Source: Pseudomonas helvetica
GTDB taxonomy: Bacteria; Pseudomonadota; Gammaproteobacteria; Pseudomonadales; Pseudomonadaceae
Reading direction: 5' to 3'
Length of the DNA: 64,000 bases
NCBI RefSeq assembly: GCF_039908645.1
Contig: NZ_CP150917.1
Span: forward strand, 184,501 to 248,500
Shown here: positions 3 to 9,679 of the stretch, piece by piece
Layout of the letters: each line of letters starts with the position of its first letter
Position numbering within the stretch: the first letter of the stretch is position 1
The notes under the pieces: generated by a model
The model's input: the letters and a program-made list of their open reading frames with translations, nothing else
Database searches by the model: none
What the model was told of the DNA's origin: nothing
Program-made: the position numbers and the translations under genes

Positions 3-3000
3 TCGAACAACTACGCTATCGACACCGTACGCCCGACCGCGACTATCGTGGTGGCTAACAACGCCTTGAAAGTCGGTGACACCTCGCTGGTAACCATCAC
101 CTTCAGCGAGGCGGTGACCGGCTTCACCAACGCCGACCTGACGATTGCCAATGGCACACTGACCGCGGTGAGCAGCAGTGACGGCGGTATCACCTGGACG
201 GCGACCTTTACCCCGAGCGCCAGCACTACCGACGCCACTAACCTGATTACTCTGGACAACACCGGGATCGCCGATTTGGCCGGCAACGCTGGCAGCGGCA
301 GCACCGACTCAAACAACTTCGCCATCGACACCCAGCGTCCGACCGCCACCATCGTGGTCGCCGACAGCACCCTGATGGCCGGTGAAACGTCGCTGGTAAC
401 CATTACCTTCTCCGAGGCGGTGACCGGTTTCACCAATGCCGACCTGACGATCCCCAACGGCACGCTGACCGCGGTCAGTAGCAGTGATGGGGGTATCACC
501 TGGACGGCCACGTTCACCCCGACTGCGGGCATCAACGATACGACCAACCTGATCACCCTGGCCAACGCTGGCGTGGCCGACCTGGCCGGCAATGCCGGTA
601 GCGGAACTACCGATTCCGGCAACTTCACAATCGACACCGTGCGGCCGACGGCGACCATCGTGGTCGCCGACAATGCACTTAAAGTGGGCGATACATCACT
701 GGTGACCATCACCTTCTCCGAGGCGGTGACCGGCTTCACCAACGCTGACCTGACGATTGCCAACGGCACGCTGAGCGCGGTCAGCAGCGGCGATGGCGGT
801 GTGACTTGGGCCGCGACCTTTACCCCGAGTGCCAGCACTACCGATGCGACTAACCTGATCACCCTGGACAATACCGGTGTGCAGGGCGGTTCCGGCAACG
901 CTGGCAGCGGCATCACCGACTCGAACAACTACGCTATCGACACCGTGCGCCCGACGGCGACTATCGTGGTGGCGGACAACGCCCTGAAAATCGGTGATAC
1001 CTCGCTGGTGACCATCACCTTCAGCGAGGCGGTGAGCGGTTTCACCAACGCCGACCTGACGATTACCAACGGTACACTGACCGCCGTCAGCAGCAGTGAT
1101 GGCGGCATCACCTGGACCGCGACCTTTACCCCGAGCGCCAGCACCACCGACGCGACCAACCTGATCACCCTGGACAACACCGGGATCGCCGATCTGGCCG
1201 GCAACGCCGGTAGCGGCACCACCGACTCAAACAACTTCACCATCGACACTCAGCGTCCGACCGCCACCATCGTGCTGGCCGACTCAACGCTGGCCGCCGG
1301 TGAAACCTCGCTGGTGACGATCACCTTCAGCGAGGCGGTGACCGGTTTCACCAACGCGGACCTGACGATCCCCAACGGCACGCTGACCGCGGTCAGTAGC
1401 AGTGATGGCGGTATCACCTGGACGGCCACGTTCACCCCGACTGCGGGCATCAACGATACGACCAACCTGATCACCCTGGCCAACACCGGCGTCGCCGATC
1501 TGGCCGGCAACGCCGGCAGCGGCACCACCGATTCCGCCAACTTCACCATCGACACCGTGCGTCCTACGGCGACCATCGTGGTGGCCGACAACGCCTTGAA
1601 AATCGGTGACACCTCGCTGGTGACCATCACCTTCAGCGAGGCGGTGACCGGCTTCACCAACGCCGACCTGACGATTGCCAACGGCACGCTGAGCGCGGTC
1701 AGCAGCAGCGATGGCGGCATCACCTGGACCGCGACCTTTACCCCGACCAGCGCCATTACCGATGCCACCAACCTGATCACCCTGGACAACACCGGCGTGC
1801 AGAACGGCTCCGGTAACGTCGGCAGCGGCACCACCGACTCGAACAACTACGCCATCGACACCGTACGCCCGACCGCAACGGTCGTGGTGGCGGATAATGC
1901 CTTGAAAGTCGGTGACACCTCGCTGGTAACCATCACCTTCAGCGAGGCGGTGAGCGGTTTCACCAACGCCGACCTGACGATTGCCAATGGCACACTGACC
2001 GCCGTCAGCAGCAGTGACGGCGGCATCACCTGGACGGCGACCTTTACCCCGAGCGCCAGCACCACCGACGCGACCAATCTGATCACCCTGGACAACACCG
2101 GGATCGCCGATCTGGCCGGCAACGCCGGTAGCGGGACCACCGATTCGAACAACTTCGCCATCGACACCCAGCGTCCGACCGCCACCATCGTGCTAGCCGA
2201 CTCAACGCTGGCCGCCGGTGAAACCTCGCTGGTGACGATCACCTTCTCCGAGGCGGTGACCGGTTTCACCAACGCCGACCTGACGATCCCCAACGGCACG
2301 CTGACCGCGGTCAGCAGCAGCGATGGTGGGATCACCTGGACGGCCACCTTTACTCCGACCGCGGGCATCAACGACACCACCAACCTGATCTCCCTGGCCA
2401 ACGCCGGCGTGGCCGATCTGGCCGGTAACGCCGGTAACGGCACCACCGACTCCGCCAACTTCACCATTGATACCGTGCGTCCGACGGCGACCATCATCGT
2501 TGCCGACAACGCACTGAAGATTGGCGAAACCTCGCTGGTAACCATCACTTTCAGCGAGGCGGTGACCGGCTTCACCAACGCCGACCTGACGATTGCCAAC
2601 GGCACGCTGACCGCGGTCAGCAGCAGCGATGGCGGTGTGACCTGGACCGCGACCTTTACCCCGACCAGCGCCATTACCGACGCCACCAACCTGATCACCC
2701 TGGACAATACCGGCGTGCAGAACGGGTCCGGCAACGTCGGGACGGGCACCACCGATTCCAACAACTACGCCATCGACACCCAGCGTCCGACGGCAACCAT
2801 CGTGGTGACGGACACCGCGCTGGGGATCGGTCAGACTTCGTTGGTGACCATCACCTTCTCCGAGGCAGTGACCGGTTTCACCAACGCCGACCTGACGATC
2901 GACAACGGTACGTTGAGCGCGGTGAGCAGCAGCGATGGCGGCGTAACCTGGACCGCCACACTGACGCCGGTGAACGGCATCACCCACAGCGGCAATGTGA

Positions 3001-5768
3001 TCACCCTGGACAACACCGGGATTGCCGACCTGGCCGGTAATGCCGGTGCTGCGACCACCGATTCCAATACTTACGCTATTGATAGTCAGCGCCCGACCGC
3101 CACTATCGTGTTTGCCGACCCGACGCTGGCCGCCGGTGAAACCTCTTTGGTGACCTTCACCTTCAGCGAGGCGGTGACCGGCTTCACCAACGCCGACCTG
3201 ACGATCCCCAACGGCACACTGACCGCGGTCAGCAGCAGCGATGGCGGCATCACCTGGACGGCCACCTTCACCCCGACTGCGGGCATAAAAGACACGACCA
3301 ACCTGATCACCCTGGCCAACACCGGCGTCGCCGATCTGGCCGGCAACGCGGGCAGCGGCACCACCGATTCCGCCAACTTCACCATCGACACCGTGCGTCC
3401 AACGGCGACCATCGTGGTGGCCGACAACGCCTTGAAAATCGGTGACACCTCGCTGGTGACCATCACCTTCAGCGAGGCGGTGACCGACTTCACCAACGCC
3501 GACCTGACGATTGCCAACGGCACGCTGACCGCGGTCAGCAGCAGCGATGGCGGGATCACCTGGACGGCGACTTTTACCCCGACCAGCGCCATCACTGACA
3601 CCACCAACCTGATCACCCTGGACAATACCGGCGTGCAGAATGGTTCTGGTAACGTTGGCAGCGGCACCACCGATTCCAACAACTACGCGATCGATACCCA
3701 GCGTCCAACGGCGACCATCGTGGTCGCGGACAACGCCTTGAAAATCGGTGAAACCTCACTGGTGACCATCACCTTCAGCGAGGCGGTGACCGGTTTCACC
3801 AACGCCGACCTGACGATCGCCAACGGCACCCTCAGCGCCGTGAGCAGCAGCGACGGCGGGATCACCTGGACGGCGACCTTTACCCCGAGCGCCAGCATCA
3901 CCGATGCGACCAACCTGATCACCCTGGACAACACCGGCGTGGCCGATCTGGCTGGCAACGCCGGTAGCGGGACCTCCGACTCGAACAACTATGCGATCGA
4001 CACCGCGCGTCCGACCGCGACCATTGTTGTAGCTGACGGTACCCTCTCGGTCGGTGAAACGTCGTTGGTGACCATCACCTTCAGCGAAGCGGTGACTGGA
4101 TTCGACAACAGTGACCTGAGCGTGCCCAACGGCACCCTGACCAGCGTCAGCAGCAGCGATGGCGGCATCACCTGGACGGCCACCTTCACCCCGACTGCCG
4201 GCATAAAAGACACCACCAACCTGATCACCCTGGCCAACACCGGCGTGGCCGACCTGGCCGGTAACGCCGGTAGCGGCACCACCGATTCCGCCAACTTCAC
4301 CATCGACACCGTGCGTCCAACGGCGACTATCGTGGTGGCCGACAACGCAATCAAGGTGGGCGAAACCTCATTGGTGACCATCACCTTCTCCGAGGCGGTC
4401 AGCGGGTTCACCAACGCCGACTTGACCATCGCCAACGGTACGTTGAGCGCGGTCAGTTCAAGCGATGGCGGTATTACCTGGACCGCGACCTTCACCCCGG
4501 CCGCGAATATTACCGACACCACCAACCTGATCACCCTGGACAACACGGGGGTGCAGAACGCCTCTGGCAACGTTGGTGTGGGCACCACAGATTCGAACAA
4601 CTACGCCATCGACACGCAACGTCCAACGGCAAGCATTGTGGTGGCCAAACCGCTGCTGGGCATCGGTCAGACCTCGGGGGTGACCATCACCTTCAGCGAA
4701 GCGGTAAGCGGTTTTGACCTGTCCGATCTGAGCGTGACCAACGGCACGTTGTCCAACCTGGCCAGCAGTGACGGCGGCAAGACCTGGACCGCGACGTTCA
4801 CGCCGACGGCGAATGTGACCGACCCCAGCAACCTGATTGTGCTCGACAACAGCAATGTCAACGACGCCGCAGGTAATGCCGGGACGGGGCTGGCCATCTC
4901 CAACAACTACGCTCTGGACAGTGATCGCCCCACCGCGACCATCGTCGTCGCCAACCCGAACCTGGGCGTTGGCCAGACCTCGCAGGTGACCTTCAGCTTC
5001 AGCGAGGCGGTGAAGCATTTCGATTTGTCCGACATCAGCGTGGCCAATGGCACCCTCACCAACCTGAGCAGCAGCAACGGCGGCAAGACCTGGACTGCCA
5101 CCCTGACCCCGGCGGCCAACATCAGCGATGCGACCAACTTCATCGGGCTGGACACCAGCAACGTGACCGACCGCGCCGGGAACGCGGGCACTGGGGGCGC
5201 GATCTCCAACAATTTCACAGTCAACACGGTGCCGGCCGTCGTGGTCTTGGTCAGCGACCCGACACCGCCGCAAAGCACTCCGAACATACCGTTGCAGCCG
5301 ATTGTCTTCGCACCGCCGACCGGCAATCTCGGCTCACCGCTGACTTTTGCGCCGTTGTTCGAACAGCGGGTATTGGGCGATGGCATCCGCCCACTGGGGG
5401 ATATTTTCATCAACCGCGGCGCACTGAGCCCCAGCTATATCGCTCAGGTGTTCACTAGCAGCGACAGCGGCGGGAATGGCTCCGCTCACGGCTTCCTGGG
5501 TTTTGGCGGGGGTGATGGCGGGGTGTTTGGCAGCAGCACGCTGTCGAGTCTGTTCAGTCATGAGTCGGGCAATGGCGACAGTTCGTTCAATGCGTTCGGC
5601 GACAAGTCGATCCAGCACGGCGGCGATGCCGCTCAAGGCCTGCACGGTGTCTATGGCGCACTGACCTTGGGCGAGCAACTTCAACAACTTGAAAACGCCG
5701 AGAAGCAGCAGATCCAGGCGTTGGCTGCAGCGTTGCAACAGGTTGGCATCAGCGAAATGCAGGCCTGA
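3..5768 (+). CDS. Giant Ig-like repeat surface/secreted protein, 3' part (5' end outside window)
   Basis: The frame is open at the left edge (first complete codon at position 3), so the gene starts upstream and only the last 1921 residues are visible. Seventeen Ig-like units of 102 residues run to about residue 1743, each with a core of the type VTITFSEAVTGF, NADLTI, DGGITWTATFTP and ADLAGNAG. The roughly 178-residue tail is different: a Pro-rich linker, a Gly-rich stretch near GFLGFGGGDGGVFG and a Gln-rich predicted helix ending in ISEMQA. I see no Cys and no RTX GGxGxD nonapeptides. Such proteins are usually large adhesins or matrix proteins exported by type I secretion. The TolC-family gene 42 bp downstream fits that, but no ABC or membrane-fusion gene is in view. 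Role in adhesion is inferred; the repeat architecture is seen directly. Confidence 0.9.
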   Translation, partial: SNNYAIDTVRPTATIVVANNALKVGDTSLVTITFSEAVTGFTNADLTIANGTLTAVSSSDGGITWTATFTPSASTTDATNLITLDNTGIADLAGNAGSGSTDSNNFAIDTQRPTATIVVADSTLMAGETSLVTITFSEAVTGFTNADLTIPNGTLTAVSSSDGGITWTATFTPTAGINDTTNLITLANAGVADLAGNAGSGTTDSGNFTIDTVRPTATIVVADNALKVGDTSLVTITFSEAVTGFTNADLTIANGTLSAVSSGDGGVTWAATFTPSASTTDATNLITLDNTGVQGGSGNAGSGITDSNNYAIDTVRPTATIVVADNALKIGDTSLVTITFSEAVSGFTNADLTITNGTLTAVSSSDGGITWTATFTPSASTTDATNLITLDNTGIADLAGNAGSGTTDSNNFTIDTQRPTATIVLADSTLAAGETSLVTITFSEAVTGFTNADLTIPNGTLTAVSSSDGGITWTATFTPTAGINDTTNLITLANTGVADLAGNAGSGTTDSANFTIDTVRPTATIVVADNALKIGDTSLVTITFSEAVTGFTNADLTIANGTLSAVSSSDGGITWTATFTPTSAITDATNLITLDNTGVQNGSGNVGSGTTDSNNYAIDTVRPTATVVVADNALKVGDTSLVTITFSEAVSGFTNADLTIANGTLTAVSSSDGGITWTATFTPSASTTDATNLITLDNTGIADLAGNAGSGTTDSNNFAIDTQRPTATIVLADSTLAAGETSLVTITFSEAVTGFTNADLTIPNGTLTAVSSSDGGITWTATFTPTAGINDTTNLISLANAGVADLAGNAGNGTTDSANFTIDTVRPTATIIVADNALKIGETSLVTITFSEAVTGFTNADLTIANGTLTAVSSSDGGVTWTATFTPTSAITDATNLITLDNTGVQNGSGNVGTGTTDSNNYAIDTQRPTATIVVTDTALGIGQTSLVTITFSEAVTGFTNADLTIDNGTLSAVSSSDGGVTWTATLTPVNGITHSGNVITLDNTGIADLAGNAGAATTDSNTYAIDSQRPTATIVFADPTLAAGETSLVTFTFSEAVTGFTNADLTIPNGTLTAVSSSDGGITWTATFTPTAGIKDTTNLITLANTGVADLAGNAGSGTTDSANFTIDTVRPTATIVVADNALKIGDTSLVTITFSEAVTDFTNADLTIANGTLTAVSSSDGGITWTATFTPTSAITDTTNLITLDNTGVQNGSGNVGSGTTDSNNYAIDTQRPTATIVVADNALKIGETSLVTITFSEAVTGFTNADLTIANGTLSAVSSSDGGITWTATFTPSASITDATNLITLDNTGVADLAGNAGSGTSDSNNYAIDTARPTATIVVADGTLSVGETSLVTITFSEAVTGFDNSDLSVPNGTLTSVSSSDGGITWTATFTPTAGIKDTTNLITLANTGVADLAGNAGSGTTDSANFTIDTVRPTATIVVADNAIKVGETSLVTITFSEAVSGFTNADLTIANGTLSAVSSSDGGITWTATFTPAANITDTTNLITLDNTGVQNASGNVGVGTTDSNNYAIDTQRPTASIVVAKPLLGIGQTSGVTITFSEAVSGFDLSDLSVTNGTLSNLASSDGGKTWTATFTPTANVTDPSNLIVLDNSNVNDAAGNAGTGLAISNNYALDSDRPTATIVVANPNLGVGQTSQVTFSFSEAVKHFDLSDISVANGTLTNLSSSNGGKTWTATLTPAANISDATNFIGLDTSNVTDRAGNAGTGGAISNNFTVNTVPAVVVLVSDPTPPQSTPNIPLQPIVFAPPTGNLGSPLTFAPLFEQRVLGDGIRPLGDIFINRGALSPSYIAQVFTSSDSGGNGSAHGFLGFGGGDGGVFGSSTLSSLFSHESGNGDSSFNAFGDKSIQHGGDAAQGLHGVYGALTLGEQLQQLENAEKQQIQALAAALQQVGISEMQA
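30..5231 (+). repeat. 17 tandem 306-bp units forming 918-bp triplets
   Basis: Units begin with an Arg-Pro-Thr/Ala codon set at 30, 336, 642, 948 and every 306 bp to 4926, with no length change. Three unit types alternate. A carries ADNALK and GIADLAGNAG. B carries a STLAAGETS-like segment, IPNG, and TAGINDTTN. C carries GVQNGSGNVG and NNYAIDT. Five A-B-C sets fill 30-4619 (918 bp each). The fourth and fifth sets have a more divergent A unit, and the last two units (4620-5231) are divergent throughout. Near-identical DNA between equivalent units points to homogenisation by recombination. Confidence 0.95.
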
Positions 5769-5810
5769 CTAAAAACCTGAAATTGTGCGGTACCTAGGGG
5801 CGGTCCAAGG

Positions 5811-7325
5811 ATGAAAAAAAGTCAGAAACTATTCGGCGCCAGCCTGCTGGCGCTTGCAATCAGCGGATGTGCGGTAACCAGTGAGCCGATTGAACGCAGT
5901 GTCAGCGAGCAGCGCGCCAGAAGCGATTTGGCGAGCATGTACAAGGATCAGGAGCCCCTTAGCGGCCCACTGACGCTGCATCAAGCCATGGCCCGCGCAG
6001 TGAAATACAACCTTGAGGGCCGGTTGAAAATCATGGAAGAGGCGTTGGCCAAGCGCCAACTCGACCTCGCCAGCTTCGACATGCTGCCGCGCATGGCCCT
6101 GGACGCCGGTTACGTGGGGCGAAACAACACCAGCGCCTCCAGCAGCCAGAGCGTGCGCACCGGCACCCAGTCCCTGGAACCTTCGACCTCACAGGACCGC
6201 GACCGCAGAGTCGCCGACCTGACCATGGTCTGGAACGTCCTCGACTTCGGCGTCAGCTACATCAACGCCAAGCAGCAGGGCGATCAACGGCTGATCGTTC
6301 AGGAACGCCGGCGCAAGGTCATCAATACCATCGTTCAGGACGTGCGCTCGGCGTATTGGCGGGCGGTGGCCGCTGAACGCCTGCTCAAGCAGATCGATAG
6401 CCTGATGGCGCGGGTCGATGCCGCGCGCGACAACAGCCAGAGCATGAGCGAGCAGCGTATCGGCGACCCGGTGCAGGCCTTGGGTTACCAACGTTCGCTG
6501 ATCGAAGCCACGCGCCAGCTCGAAGAACAGCGGCGGGCACTGTCGCTGGCGAAAACCGAACTGGCGACCCTGATCAACCTGCCGATGGGCACCGAGTTGA
6601 CGTTGGCGACGCCGGAGGATTACCCGATTCCGGAACTCAAGGTCGGCATGGCCAGCCTTGAGCAGGAAGCCCTGGCCAGCCGCCCGGAACTGCGCGAGCA
6701 GGATTATCAGACGCGCATCAGCACCGCCGAAACCCGCAAAGCCATGCTGCGGCTGCTGCCGGGGCTGGAACTCTCGGCTGGCGGGCATTACGACAGCAAC
6801 TCGTTTCTGGTCAACGACAAGTGGGCCGACTACGGGGTAAAAATCACCTGGAACCTGTTCAACGTGATTTCCGCCCCGGCGGCCATCGACGTGGCCAAGG
6901 CCGGTGAAGAAGTGGCCAAGGCACGCCGTCAGGCAATGTCGATCGCGGTGCTGGCGCAGCTCTACGTGGCCAACGCCAACTACCGCGAAGCGCTGCGCCA
7001 GTTCGAGACCAACCAGCAGCTGTCGAACATCGACGGGCAGATTCTTGGCCAGTTGCGTAATCGTCATCAGGCCGCGGGCATCGGCGAACTGGAGCTGATC
7101 CAGGGCGAACTGAACACCCTGCAAGCCGACCTGCGCCGCGACCTGTCGTACGCGGATTTGCGCAACGCTTACGGGCAGATCTTCGCCAGTGCCGGGCTCG
7201 ACCCACTGCCGGATCAGGTGCAGTCGACCCAAGTGCAGTCGATCGCCACGGAACTGGCCAGCCGCGAGGATGCGTGGGCCGCCGGCAACATCACGGTGCC
7301 GACAGCCCATGTCCAAAGCAAGTAA
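5811..7325 (+). CDS. TolC-family outer-membrane lipoprotein (type I secretion/efflux channel)
   Basis: 504 residues. The N-terminus is a lipoprotein signal with lipobox AISGC (Cys20). The rest has the TolC/OEP layout: long helical stretches rich in Ala, Gln, Arg and Glu, and repeat-like segments such as ASRPELREQDY typical of outer-membrane efflux proteins. It should form the trimeric channel spanning the outer membrane and periplasm. It starts 42 bp after the Ig-repeat gene and its 3' end overlaps cysC by 17 bp, so it is probably co-transcribed with both. The obvious inferred job is export of the repeat protein, as LapE serves LapA. No inner-membrane ABC or HlyD partner lies nearby on this side, so partners are either upstream of the window or elsewhere. 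Confidence 0.85.
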   Translation: MKKSQKLFGASLLALAISGCAVTSEPIERSVSEQRARSDLASMYKDQEPLSGPLTLHQAMARAVKYNLEGRLKIMEEALAKRQLDLASFDMLPRMALDAGYVGRNNTSASSSQSVRTGTQSLEPSTSQDRDRRVADLTMVWNVLDFGVSYINAKQQGDQRLIVQERRRKVINTIVQDVRSAYWRAVAAERLLKQIDSLMARVDAARDNSQSMSEQRIGDPVQALGYQRSLIEATRQLEEQRRALSLAKTELATLINLPMGTELTLATPEDYPIPELKVGMASLEQEALASRPELREQDYQTRISTAETRKAMLRLLPGLELSAGGHYDSNSFLVNDKWADYGVKITWNLFNVISAPAAIDVAKAGEEVAKARRQAMSIAVLAQLYVANANYREALRQFETNQQLSNIDGQILGQLRNRHQAAGIGELELIQGELNTLQADLRRDLSYADLRNAYGQIFASAGLDPLPDQVQSTQVQSIATELASREDAWAAGNITVPTAHVQSK

Positions 7326-7914
7326 TCTGCTGGCGCCCACGGCCAGCGTCAGCCGGGCGCAACGCGAAGACCGCCATGGCCATCGCGGAGCGGCGATCCT
7401 GCTGACCGGTTTACCGGCGGCAGGCAAGTCGACCCTGGCCCAGGCACTGCACGCCGCGTTGTTCGAACGCGGCCTGCACAGCCTGGTGCTCGATGGCGAT
7501 GGACTGCGGGTCGGGCTCAATCGCGACCTCGGGTTTGCCGACAAGGATCGTCAGGAAAACATCCGCCGCGCCAGTGAGGTGGCAGCACTGCTGGTGGAGA
7601 ACGGACAGATTGTGATCCTGGCGATGATTGCGCCGCTGGTTGAGCTGCGCGACATTTTCGCCCAGCGTTTGGGCGACGATTACCGCGAAGTCTGGTGCAG
7701 TGCTGCGCTCAACGTTTGCGAGCAGCGTGATCCGAAAGGTCATTACGCCCGTGCGCGCAGCGGTGAACTGCCGGGCTTTACCGGTATCTCCGCACCTTAC
7801 GAGCCACCCGCGTCGGCGGCGTTGGTGCTCGACACCGGCGTGCTGTCGGTGGACGCCTGCCTCGATCGCTTACTGACCTGGCTCGGCGAATGCGCGGTGC
7901 TACCGCACCGATGA
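7309..7914 (+). CDS. cysC: Adenylyl-sulfate (APS) kinase, stand-alone
   Basis: 201 residues. It phosphorylates adenosine 5'-phosphosulfate to PAPS, the donor used by sulfotransferases. Visible motifs: P-loop GLPAAGKS (34-41), LDGDGLRVGLNRDLGF (61-76), the ADKDRQENIRR segment (77-87), and the C-terminal CEQRDPKGHY and FTGISAPYEPP motifs of the family. I chose the ATG at 7309, which overlaps the TolC gene by 17 bp; the frame is open further upstream, but that part is a shadow of tolC. Its stop overlaps the next start as ATGA. A free CysC is unexpected for assimilation, since Pseudomonas usually has a CysN-CysC fusion for that. Its place directly before a sulfotransferase suggests a dedicated PAPS supply. 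Confidence 0.92.
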   Translation: MSKASNLLAPTASVSRAQREDRHGHRGAAILLTGLPAAGKSTLAQALHAALFERGLHSLVLDGDGLRVGLNRDLGFADKDRQENIRRASEVAALLVENGQIVILAMIAPLVELRDIFAQRLGDDYREVWCSAALNVCEQRDPKGHYARARSGELPGFTGISAPYEPPASAALVLDTGVLSVDACLDRLLTWLGECAVLPHR

Positions 7915-8702
7915 CTCGACCGGCGTTTTCCCGCCTGCCGGTGACGGTGCCTCTGCCGTTACTGTTGCAGGCATTGGCGCAAATCAAGGACAGCGACTGG
8001 CATAGCCATTTCAACAGCCACTATTTCAGTGGCGACTGGAGCGGGGTGGCGCTGATCAGCGCGGCTGATGCGCTGACGGAGCTATCCCCTGGCCATGGAA
8101 AACCGGTGTTGCGAGCGCCGTGGCTGCTCGATGGTCGGTGGCAGCGTGCATTGCAGGAATTACCGTTGGACATCGTCTCGGCAAGATTGCTGAAGCTGGG
8201 GCCCGGCAGTCGGATTCACGAGCACCGCGACTATGACCTTGAGGGGCCAGAGGCCGATCTGCGGCTGCATATTCCATTACTCAGCCCACCGAATGTCGAC
8301 TTTCTGCTCGACGGTTTGCGGATGCCGATGGAGGCCGGCGAATGCTGGTTTCTCGACCTGTCGCGGCCTCACAGCGTCGACAATCGCGACAGCCGCGAGC
8401 GGGTGCATCTGGTGATCGATTGCAGGCCCGCCCCTTGGTTGGAACAGGCGATTGTCGAGGGCGTTTCAACCACGCCGGCGCCTGGCGTCGGTCATGCAGC
8501 GCAAGCGCTGGCACAGTTTCGACGGCTGCTGGAAAACGATCCGCAGCTCTGCAAGAGCTTGCAGGGCGTGACCGACAACGAAACCTTTATCGCCACCACC
8601 CTGAAGCTGGCTGCCGAACATGGCCTGGCGTTCTCCCGTGAAGAGTTGCGTGCTGCGATGCGCAATGGCCGTCGCCAATGGAATGAACAATGCAGCGCCT
8701 GA
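7911..8702 (+). CDS. Aspartyl/asparaginyl beta-hydroxylase-like dioxygenase with C-terminal Nif11-like domain
   Basis: 263 residues from the ATG at 7911 (ATGA overlap with cysC; a start 21 bp upstream is less likely). Residues about 85-172 look like the Asp/Asn beta-hydroxylase fold of Fe(II)/2-oxoglutarate enzymes. A likely iron triad is His105-x-Asp107 (in HEHRDYDLEG) with His154 (in LSRPHSVDNRD), followed by Arg164 as a likely 2-oxoglutarate contact in RERVHLVID. Residues about 198-253 match the Nif11 pattern of RiPP leader peptides (LAQFRRLLENDPQL, then FSREELRAAM). It should hydroxylate Asp, Asn or another side chain of a peptide or protein. The fused Nif11-like part may be a docking or recognition module. 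The Nif11 assignment is by pattern only. The 3' end overlaps the sulfotransferase by 13 bp. Confidence 0.8.
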   Translation: MTRPAFSRLPVTVPLPLLLQALAQIKDSDWHSHFNSHYFSGDWSGVALISAADALTELSPGHGKPVLRAPWLLDGRWQRALQELPLDIVSARLLKLGPGSRIHEHRDYDLEGPEADLRLHIPLLSPPNVDFLLDGLRMPMEAGECWFLDLSRPHSVDNRDSRERVHLVIDCRPAPWLEQAIVEGVSTTPAPGVGHAAQALAQFRRLLENDPQLCKSLQGVTDNETFIATTLKLAAEHGLAFSREELRAAMRNGRRQWNEQCSA

Positions 8703-9679
8703 ACCTCGACGGCTGGTTGCCGATTCGCGTCTGGCAGCAGGCCGGGGAGTGGCGGGTCGATTGGTGCTGGTTTGGTGATCAGCCGTTGCGACAGCCGTTT
8801 TTCCGCGATGCGGTGGAGGAGGCGCTGCGCCTGCCGTTCAACCAGGCCTTCCGCCGTCAAACGCCGCTGAGAACGCTAAGTGATTGGCAGACGATCAGCC
8901 TTGGGCTGGTGCCGAGTGCGTTCATTTTTCACGCCTCGCGCTGTGGCTCGACGCTGATCAGCCAGATGCTGGCGCAACTCGACAACCACATCGTCATTTC
9001 CGAACCACCACCACTGGATGCCTTGCTACGCAGCGAACTTCCGCCTGCAGAACGCAACGCGGCGATTCGCGGTTTGCTCTCGGCCTATGGCCAGCCGCGC
9101 CGAGGTGTGGAACAACGCTTGGTGATCAAGCTGGACGCCTGGAACATCGGTGAGCTGAAGCGGTTGCGTGAGTGTTTCCCTGATACGCCCTGGTTGTTTG
9201 TCTACCGCGATCCGCTGGAAATCGCCGTCTCACACCTGCGTCGTCCGGGCCTGCACATGGTGCCAGGGCTGATCGGCACCAGTGCATTGGACGATGGGGC
9301 AGCATTCGAGGGGCGAGAGGATTTCATCGCGCGGCGCTTGGGCAAACTGCTGCAATTAGGCGTTGAACATTGCCACGAATTTGCCGGACTGGCGGTCAAC
9401 TATCGTGAGTTGCCGGGCGCCATGGAGGGCCATTTGGCCAGGTTTTTTGCACTGAATACCGAGCAGCGAACCCAAGTGTTCAGCGCTGTAAGTCAGCACG
9501 CCAAACAACCGGCCGAAACGTTTGTGGCCGACAGCGAAGGCAAACAACAAGAAGCTTCGGCGCGGCTCAGAGAACGCGTTGAGTGTTGGGCGCACGGGCC
9601 TTACGAAGCATTGGAGCAATGGCGAACCGCTTCTTGTGGCGAGGGAGCTTGCTCCCGCTGGGCCGCGGAGCGGCCCTGA
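8690..9679 (+). CDS. Sulfotransferase-family protein
   Basis: 329 residues. The 5'-phosphosulfate-binding loop of PAPS-dependent sulfotransferases is visible as FHASRCGSTLISQML (80-94), preceded by a hydrophobic strand. The 3'-phosphate motif is FVYRDPLEIAVSHLRRP (170-186). It should transfer sulfate from PAPS to a hydroxyl or amine. The acceptor is unknown; the encoded Ig-repeat protein, or a hydroxylated residue made by the enzyme before it, is my inference. The start overlaps the hydroxylase gene by 13 bp. The last 14 residues (CGEGACSRW onward) and the stop codon lie inside a REPIN, so the native C-terminus has been replaced or extended by repeat DNA. Confidence 0.82.
   Translation: MQRLNLDGWLPIRVWQQAGEWRVDWCWFGDQPLRQPFFRDAVEEALRLPFNQAFRRQTPLRTLSDWQTISLGLVPSAFIFHASRCGSTLISQMLAQLDNHIVISEPPPLDALLRSELPPAERNAAIRGLLSAYGQPRRGVEQRLVIKLDAWNIGELKRLRECFPDTPWLFVYRDPLEIAVSHLRRPGLHMVPGLIGTSALDDGAAFEGREDFIARRLGKLLQLGVEHCHEFAGLAVNYRELPGAMEGHLARFFALNTEQRTQVFSAVSQHAKQPAETFVADSEGKQQEASARLRERVECWAHGPYEALEQWRTASCGEGACSRWAAERP

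Follow-up and report, generated by a model that had tools for sequence, protein, structure and literature searches.

What do a hydroxylase and a sulfotransferase modify when their genes lie in a row behind the gene of a giant repeat protein? The question is raised by a 64,000-nucleotide stretch of the Pseudomonas helvetica genome (contig NZ_CP150917.1, hereafter the window; G000:C1:184501-248500 under our contig label G000:C1, the genome being 6.44 Mb in a single contig). At its left end, five genes on one strand encode a giant repeat protein, a TolC-family outer membrane factor, a stand-alone adenosine 5′-phosphosulfate (APS) kinase (CysC), an AspH-family hydroxylase (AspH) and a sulfotransferase (ST2). 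A preliminary description of this DNA proposed that the three enzymes modify the repeat protein. We observed gene content, linkage, co-occurrence, joint absence, fusion and conserved active-site motifs. The genes that accompany AspH and ST2 point to another acceptor. AspH may hydroxylate, and ST2 sulfate, the small tail-collar protein of a surface-fibre system encoded by the same locus; from the sequences we judge this more likely than modification of the repeat protein and give it a probability of about 0.47.

The hydroxylase–sulfotransferase pair

The list of open reading frames confirmed that the five genes lie on one strand, with a gap of 42 bp followed by overlaps of 17, 4 and 13 bp, values that result from placing the starts of CysC and AspH at ATG 7309 and ATG 7911. 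The family assignments made earlier were upheld by Pfam and TIGR profiles and, for ST2, by the modelled fold.

AspH (263 aa; window positions 7911..8702, + strand, in a frame open from 7890) belongs to the Fe(II)/2-oxoglutarate hydroxylases and matched Asp_Arg_Hydrox (PF05118) at 2.7e-14, with 53.7 bits against a curated cut-off of 22.6. Its predicted iron and 2-oxoglutarate site is formed by H105, D107, H154 and R164 (numbered from ATG 7911; 8223..8402, +), which are invariant in 7/7 and 44/44 aligned rows. By the roles of these residues in AspH, H105, D107 and H154 would be the iron ligands and R164 would bind 2-oxoglutarate. The fold and the HxD…H…R site are shared with PF05118 and with L-proline cis-4-hydroxylase, the nearest solved relative (2.8e-11), whereas the C-terminal Nif11 domain and the constant sulfotransferase partner set AspH apart. 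The Nif11 domain (8499..8648, +; Pfam 27.4 bits, cut-off 23.8; match to 9zn4 at 5.7e-4) sits on the enzyme; in Nif11-type systems for ribosomally synthesized and post-translationally modified peptides, the leader is on the precursor peptide.

ST2 (329 aa; 8690..9679, +) is a predicted sulfotransferase using 3′-phosphoadenosine-5′-phosphosulfate (PAPS). Its sequence stays below the Pfam sulfotransferase cut-off (24.8 bits versus 27), and its structure model (pLDDT, a per-residue model confidence, 83) shows a sulfotransferase fold. The PAPS motif R84-C-G-S-T and E105, 21 residues on (8939..9004, +), are both invariant; the spacing is that of the catalytic Glu in tyrosylprotein sulfotransferases. 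R84, E105 and S181 are invariant in 42/42 rows, a feature common to sulfotransferases generally, which require a PAPS-binding Arg, a Ser and a catalytic His or Glu between them, as stated in the part of the Xanthomonas account used here (PMC6637879).

We searched a sample of 199 Pseudomonas genomes and, in protein searches, took the best 120 matches. AspH matched in 50 of them, one match being weak and without ST2 (G194, 20 bits); in the remaining 49, ST2 directly adjoins AspH without exception (49/49). As the two are also fused in Duganella and Massilia, the view that hydroxylase and sulfotransferase form one unit holds. The large repeat protein, its export genes and the sulfation enzymes likewise proved to be a conserved linked set in this neighbourhood survey, as had been predicted. 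DUF4347, a domain of the repeat protein, occurs in 85 genomes, the TolC kind in 89 and a fusion of an M50 peptidase with an HlyD adaptor in 88 (the latter two at 1e-20); both exporter and repeat gene are thus more frequent than the 49 pairs.

Co-occurrence with the tail-collar gene

Upstream of the window, and on the strand opposite the repeat gene, lies a gene for a tail-collar protein (G000:C1:178186-178962; PF07484, 91.7 bits, cut-off 24), which forms a block with a gene for a GNAT-type acetyltransferase (G000:C1 from 177314). We fetched the corresponding loci, labelled their genes with profiles and took a census of 101 exporter loci. It omits the Duganella locus (L121), the AspH–ST2 pair of G130 (L068, on a contig separate from the exporter) and two pieces of second exporters (L150, L159); the G130 exporter (L069) was counted as lacking AspH. 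Gene lists were merged from two contigs in eight genomes and from two overlapping stretches in one (G004); in G076 one contig carries the pair and another the exporter. In thirteen units the stretch contains no repeat gene, in L034 and L082 the M50/GNAT end falls outside it, and several stretches are cut short by the end of a contig (L136, L147 and L148 at less than 12 kb), so that absences there are incomplete.

The collar gene was found in 48/48 loci with AspH and in 17/53 without. GNAT accompanied it in 62/65 collar loci, two of the three misses being cut stretches, and was present in 0/36 loci without a collar. Only collar and repeat gene occur without exception at loci with AspH, the exceptions for GNAT arising solely from cut stretches. 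The 88 loci with a repeat gene separate the two: AspH is present in 48/65 of those with a collar and in 0/23 of those without. Because the repeat gene is common to all 88, this favours the collar as the partner of AspH.

The pair also changes its place. AspH–ST2 follows TolC or CysC in 38 loci, as in the window (one of these, in G076, has no exporter genes in its stretch), lies between M50 and GNAT in eight, belongs to a divergent collar–GNAT–AspH–ST2 block in two, is fused and placed between collar and a second sulfotransferase gene (ST1) in Duganella, and stands apart from the locus in G130. Of the linked orders, of which there are four, three place the pair next to the collar/GNAT block. 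In the window's order, GNAT, collar and the gene of a DUF6916 protein (Pfam 29.0 bits, cut-off 27) are on the far side of the repeat gene from the pair. Three genomes, G129, G139 and G028, keep M50, ST1, repeat gene and TolC and lack AspH–ST2, GNAT, DUF6916 and collar together; the M50 and TolC proteins of G129 are 97% and 96% identical to those of the window's genome.

Several observations weigh against the collar protein as acceptor. The repeat gene is present in 48/48 loci with AspH. AspH is missing from 17 loci that contain both collar and repeat gene; the collar thus does not need AspH. Nor is the collar the sole correlate of AspH: ST1 occurs in 40/48 loci with AspH versus 11/53 without, DUF6916 in 37 versus 6 and the glycosyltransferase PMT_2 in 27 versus 5. 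Most of the 23 collar-less repeat loci are diverged and six are core-type; descent thus accounts for part of the association, and since the census loci are related by descent, Fisher values overstate it. In all, 30 units are diverged, none of them with collar, GNAT, AspH or ST1, although some of these stretches are short. In the window's type of order the pair looks like part of one operon with the repeat gene, and the collar is on the other strand; in the stretches read, neither exporter nor collar lies near the pair in G130 or G076. G129 (L048) is a weaker natural case than the other two genomes, because its repeat gene lies in two frames (531 + 2,347 aa) and PMT_2 is missing as well. Beyond Pseudomonas, an ST2 relative in Tistrella is accompanied by a 2-oxoglutarate oxygenase of another family with no collar in 16.7 kb, and an AspH relative in Diaphorobacter has no collar in 14.5 kb. 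A collar HxH motif is missing in 16/51 rows from loci with AspH versus 0/20 from loci without (71 rows, taken from the earlier-fetched part of the loci only); this amounts to about five events and is weak. Loss of the motif as a mark of AspH action was rejected, five or so events being too few. The collar of the window's own genome reads HTP at this motif.

Two further observations concern the pair. Both separate pairs, in L068 (G130) and L087 (G076), are followed by phosphoethanolamine-transferase-like and ribonuclease D-like genes, as judged by eye. Between GNAT and CysC, L105 (positions 633-1112; G115) carries a short frame resembling a remnant of ST2, in a genome without an AspH match.

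Proposed mechanism and alternatives

We propose that the product of the locus is a fibre, secreted or at the cell surface, built on the giant DUF4347/Ig-repeat protein. This protein would leave the cell through its own exporter, consisting of the M50–HlyD fusion, two HlyD/RND-type adaptors (RND, resistance-nodulation-division) and the TolC lipoprotein, which perhaps exports the collar protein too. The latter, a small relative of the tip of phage short tail fibres, would be part of the fibre. We infer that AspH acts in the cytosol, hydroxylating a side chain of a protein before export, and that ST2, whose sulfotransferase fold is also that of tyrosylprotein sulfotransferases, moves the sulfate of PAPS onto the same protein, perhaps onto the new hydroxyl; CysC may supply part of the PAPS. 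The collar protein is the most likely acceptor, GNAT may be a further modifier, and ST1 may be a separate sulfotransferase serving the repeat protein. The labelled gene directly preceding the repeat gene in 79 loci is most often ST1 (44); it is M50 in four, an adaptor in two and none in 14. In the other 15 it is the collar rather than ST1, which weighs against this division of labour.

The view advanced in the preliminary description, that the giant repeat protein is what AspH and ST2 act on ahead of its export, draws on the same-strand, overlapping genes downstream of the repeat gene, on the presence of that gene at every locus with AspH and, in Duganella, on the fusion, ST1 and repeat gene staying together. 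Its premise of linkage stands. The choice of substrate fared less well, as the pair changes place and is absent from every collar-less repeat locus, those of G139 and G028 included, and as the sulfotransferase adjoining the repeat gene is ST1. The C-terminal region of the repeat protein is alike with and without AspH among the proteins whose ends were inspected, and tyrosine density is lower with AspH than without (1.35 versus 1.95 per 100 aa in 45 versus 35 proteins, uncorrected for descent); sulfation of tyrosines in the repeats was rejected on that ground. We consider modification of the repeat protein unlikely.

It is also improbable, in our estimate, that the substrate of the pair is a small molecule, a lipid or a glycan, such as a sugar attached by the neighbouring PMT_2 glycosyltransferase. 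L-proline cis-4-hydroxylase, the closest solved relative of AspH, acts on a free amino acid, the profile of the lipid A hydroxylase LpxO matches AspH distantly and far below its cut-off, and the pair can sit apart from the locus in G130 and G076; the evidence on the other side is the association of the pair with the collar described above. That the neighbours form an exchanged surface island, linked without a common biochemical target, agrees with the gain and loss of blocks between loci and with the P. syringae genome paper, which in the portion used here treats collar, acetyltransferase and sulfotransferase genes as horizontally acquired (PMC2745422), but it is the least probable reading given the AspH–ST2 fusion, the strict pairing and the recurrence of the same partners in several gene orders.

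If the collar reading is right, the pair at a fibre locus in 49/199 sampled Pseudomonas genomes would make protein sulfation chemistry common. It would further offer testable roles for tail-collar proteins beside giant proteins outside phages and for an exporter family with an M50 protease fused to an adaptor. To our knowledge, few sulfated bacterial proteins are known.

Remaining genes of the locus and known systems

We read 36 kb of the host genome at this locus. The repeat gene occupies 3..5768 (+) of the window as its 3′ two thirds, in a frame open to the left with Big_12 in 17 stretches (Pfam). Its 5′ end lies outside; the entire frame spans G000:C1:181746-190268 and has 2,840 codons with a DUF4347 domain and Big_12 repeats, and its N-terminus is an LEPR-type start. 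It is followed by the TolC-family outer membrane factor (504 aa; 5811..7325, +; OEP 8.8e-40, TIGR01844 below cut-off, lipobox seen by eye) and by CysC (7309..7914, +; frame from 7189 with an inferred start at 7309; APS_kinase 4.7e-51, TIGR00455 above cut-off). CysC had been counted as a member of the cassette, but it is optional, being found in only 25/48 loci with AspH versus 7/53 without. Four further APS-kinase matches, one partial, occur in the host genome, so the local CysC is not the sole source of PAPS.

The exporter genes, an RND-type adaptor (G000:C1:173096-173884), a second, HlyD-like adaptor (G000:C1:173881-175200) and the M50–HlyD fusion (G000:C1:175201-177297), precede GNAT. PMT_2 (G000:C1:178979-180571) and the ST1 frame (G000:C1:180692-181702), which ends 43 bp upstream of the repeat frame, also lie outside the window. 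The HExxH motif is kept in 91/91 aligned M50 proteins; a PqqD-like domain at the M50 N-terminus is a weak match (hhalign probability 14). Secretion of type I kind, as suggested earlier, is doubtful. The HlyD-type adaptor and TolC-type outer membrane factor by which such secretion is recognized are present, but no ABC ATPase (ABC_tran) was found in the 15 locus products scanned with Pfam, one elsewhere in the genome not being excluded. Nor did these 15 include a RaxB-like product; small frames were not searched for a RaxX-like peptide. A promoter and terminator scan gave fewer sites than in shuffled sequence and was discarded. The exporter corresponds to L006 12596-16797, and a bare set of repeat gene, TolC, two adaptors and M50 is seen in diverged Pseudomonas loci, for example L132-L134, L137-L141 and L143-L145.

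The preliminary description knew of no bacterial system of this makeup. A parallel does exist in the RaxX–RaxST–RaxA/B system of Xanthomonas oryzae, in which a sulfated peptide is exported by a type I route. According to the portion of the account consulted (PMC6637879), it shares with the Pseudomonas locus a dedicated sulfotransferase with PAPS motifs, a secreted substrate and a periplasmic adaptor, draws TolC and the PAPS enzymes from core genes, and differs in its 60-residue peptide with a double-glycine leader and its type I exporter; as described there, the cluster has no hydroxylase, repeat protein or collar protein. A sulfated and exported system is thus known in general; the Pseudomonas locus departs from it in its hydroxylase, its exporter and its probable substrate.

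In P. syringae pv. tabaci 11528, collar, acetyltransferase and sulfotransferase genes are listed as an island whose transfer by phage was guessed, with homologues Pfl01_0155, Pfl01_0148 and Pfl01_0157 in P. fluorescens Pf0-1 (PMC2745422, in the part used). The island shares its collar and acetyltransferase genes with the locus, and its 278-aa sulfotransferase is probably ST1, judged from size and place alone; that part of the account proposes no exporter, hydroxylase–ST2 unit or function. At the thresholds used, full-text searches of open-licence papers gave no other account of such a locus, and neither the hydroxylase–sulfotransferase unit nor an M50–HlyD exporter in such a setting was described in them. 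The four papers found for DUF4347 are, to judge from their titles, on other subjects. A P. fuscovaginae paper was rejected as a match because it concerns another sulfur gene. Lap-type adhesin export, in the part of the account seen (PMC7716237), likewise couples a giant repeat protein to an envelope export gene set of its own, whereas here an M50–HlyD fusion and DUF4347 are found and the 15 scanned products include no ABC gene. Identity of the repeat protein with PsmE, LapA or MapA was rejected, PsmE being an RTX epimerase and the F113 clusters differing in the sources as far as seen.

Collar and pair outside Pseudomonas

Gp12, the short tail fibre protein of phage T4, has the same collar domain, PF07484 (the match of the G010 homologue to 1ocy is at 5.9e-4); unlike gp12, the collar of the locus is a stand-alone protein of about 195 aa, and none of the genes in the locus was named as a phage gene. 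We read 15 of the 49 plasmid records outside Pseudomonas that match the collar, taking each annotated genus once and Azospirillum twice. A protein of at least 1,000 aa is encoded within 8 kb of the collar in 11 (Ruegeria, Azospirillum brasilense, Pontibrevibacter, Aliiroseovarius, Hymenobacter, Spirosoma, Tateyamaria, Pseudoalteromonas CF6-2, Paenibacillus, Aminobacter and Comamonas); five of these giants are annotated as Ig-like, two are unnamed and the remaining ones are named after other repeat or binding domains. The four records without such a protein are those of Deinococcus (899 aa), Rhizobium (939 aa), A. oryzae and Polaromonas. Near the collar, 9/15 records have an N-acetyltransferase; of the six that do not, a formyltransferase is present in two, a carbamoyltransferase together with a sulfotransferase in one, and none of these in three. 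Three 50-kb control stretches of the same records (122 features) contained two proteins of such size and one N-acetyltransferase-type gene (ectA). The formyl- and carbamoyltransferases of L176, L177 and L178 lie near a collar where GNAT is not annotated, as if the modifier were exchangeable.

Duganella sp. CF517 encodes in a row a collar, the AspH–ST2 fusion (682-codon frame), ST1 and a DUF4347/Ig protein; no M50–HlyD fusion matched in a genome search run without a positive control. At 1e-20, 38 proteins resemble the AspH–ST2 fusion, though not all have both Pfam domains; those named come from Duganella, Massilia and metagenome-assembled genomes including Bacteroidetes. R-C-G-S-T with Glu 21 residues on, and HxD…H…R, are kept in 8/8 fusions checked. 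Pseudoalteromonas NC201 has AspH, a methyltransferase-like protein (below cut-off), GNAT, DUF6916, three collar genes, a subtilase and a 3,995-codon frame with Big_5 and cadherin domains in its first 1,157 residues, and no ST2 was labelled at this locus. In Azospirillum TSH100, an ST2-like gene (175 bits to the ST2 profile, no Pfam match) adjoins PqqD, HPr-kinase-like (just below cut-off) and asparagine-synthase genes, with three collar genes and GNAT within 18.7 kb.

A wider idea, doubtful as yet, is that a fibre class in Pseudomonadota, Bacteroidota, Deinococcota and Bacillota joins a domesticated phage-fibre tip, the collar, to giant, often Ig-like proteins. The tip would be covalently tailored by exchangeable enzymes: the hydroxylase–sulfotransferase here, the N-acetyltransferase of the nine records, and formyl-, carbamoyl-, methyltransferase or lasso-type enzymes elsewhere. 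The Pseudomonas exporter of such fibres would be the membrane protease–HlyD fusion, with no ABC ATPase in the locus.

The Azospirillum plasmids L165 and L175 have three collar genes and GNAT in the vicinity of PqqD and asparagine-synthase genes and of genes of the lasso B2 type. L165 adds an ST2-like gene and L175 adds 2-oxoglutarate oxygenases; this resembles a lasso-like tailoring set near tail-fibre proteins. Besides the window's own, 10 of 369 genomes of the class have AspH relatives, five of them in frames longer than 600 aa, and weak ST1-like matches lie near AspH relatives in L122, L126 and L131 from other Gammaproteobacteria.

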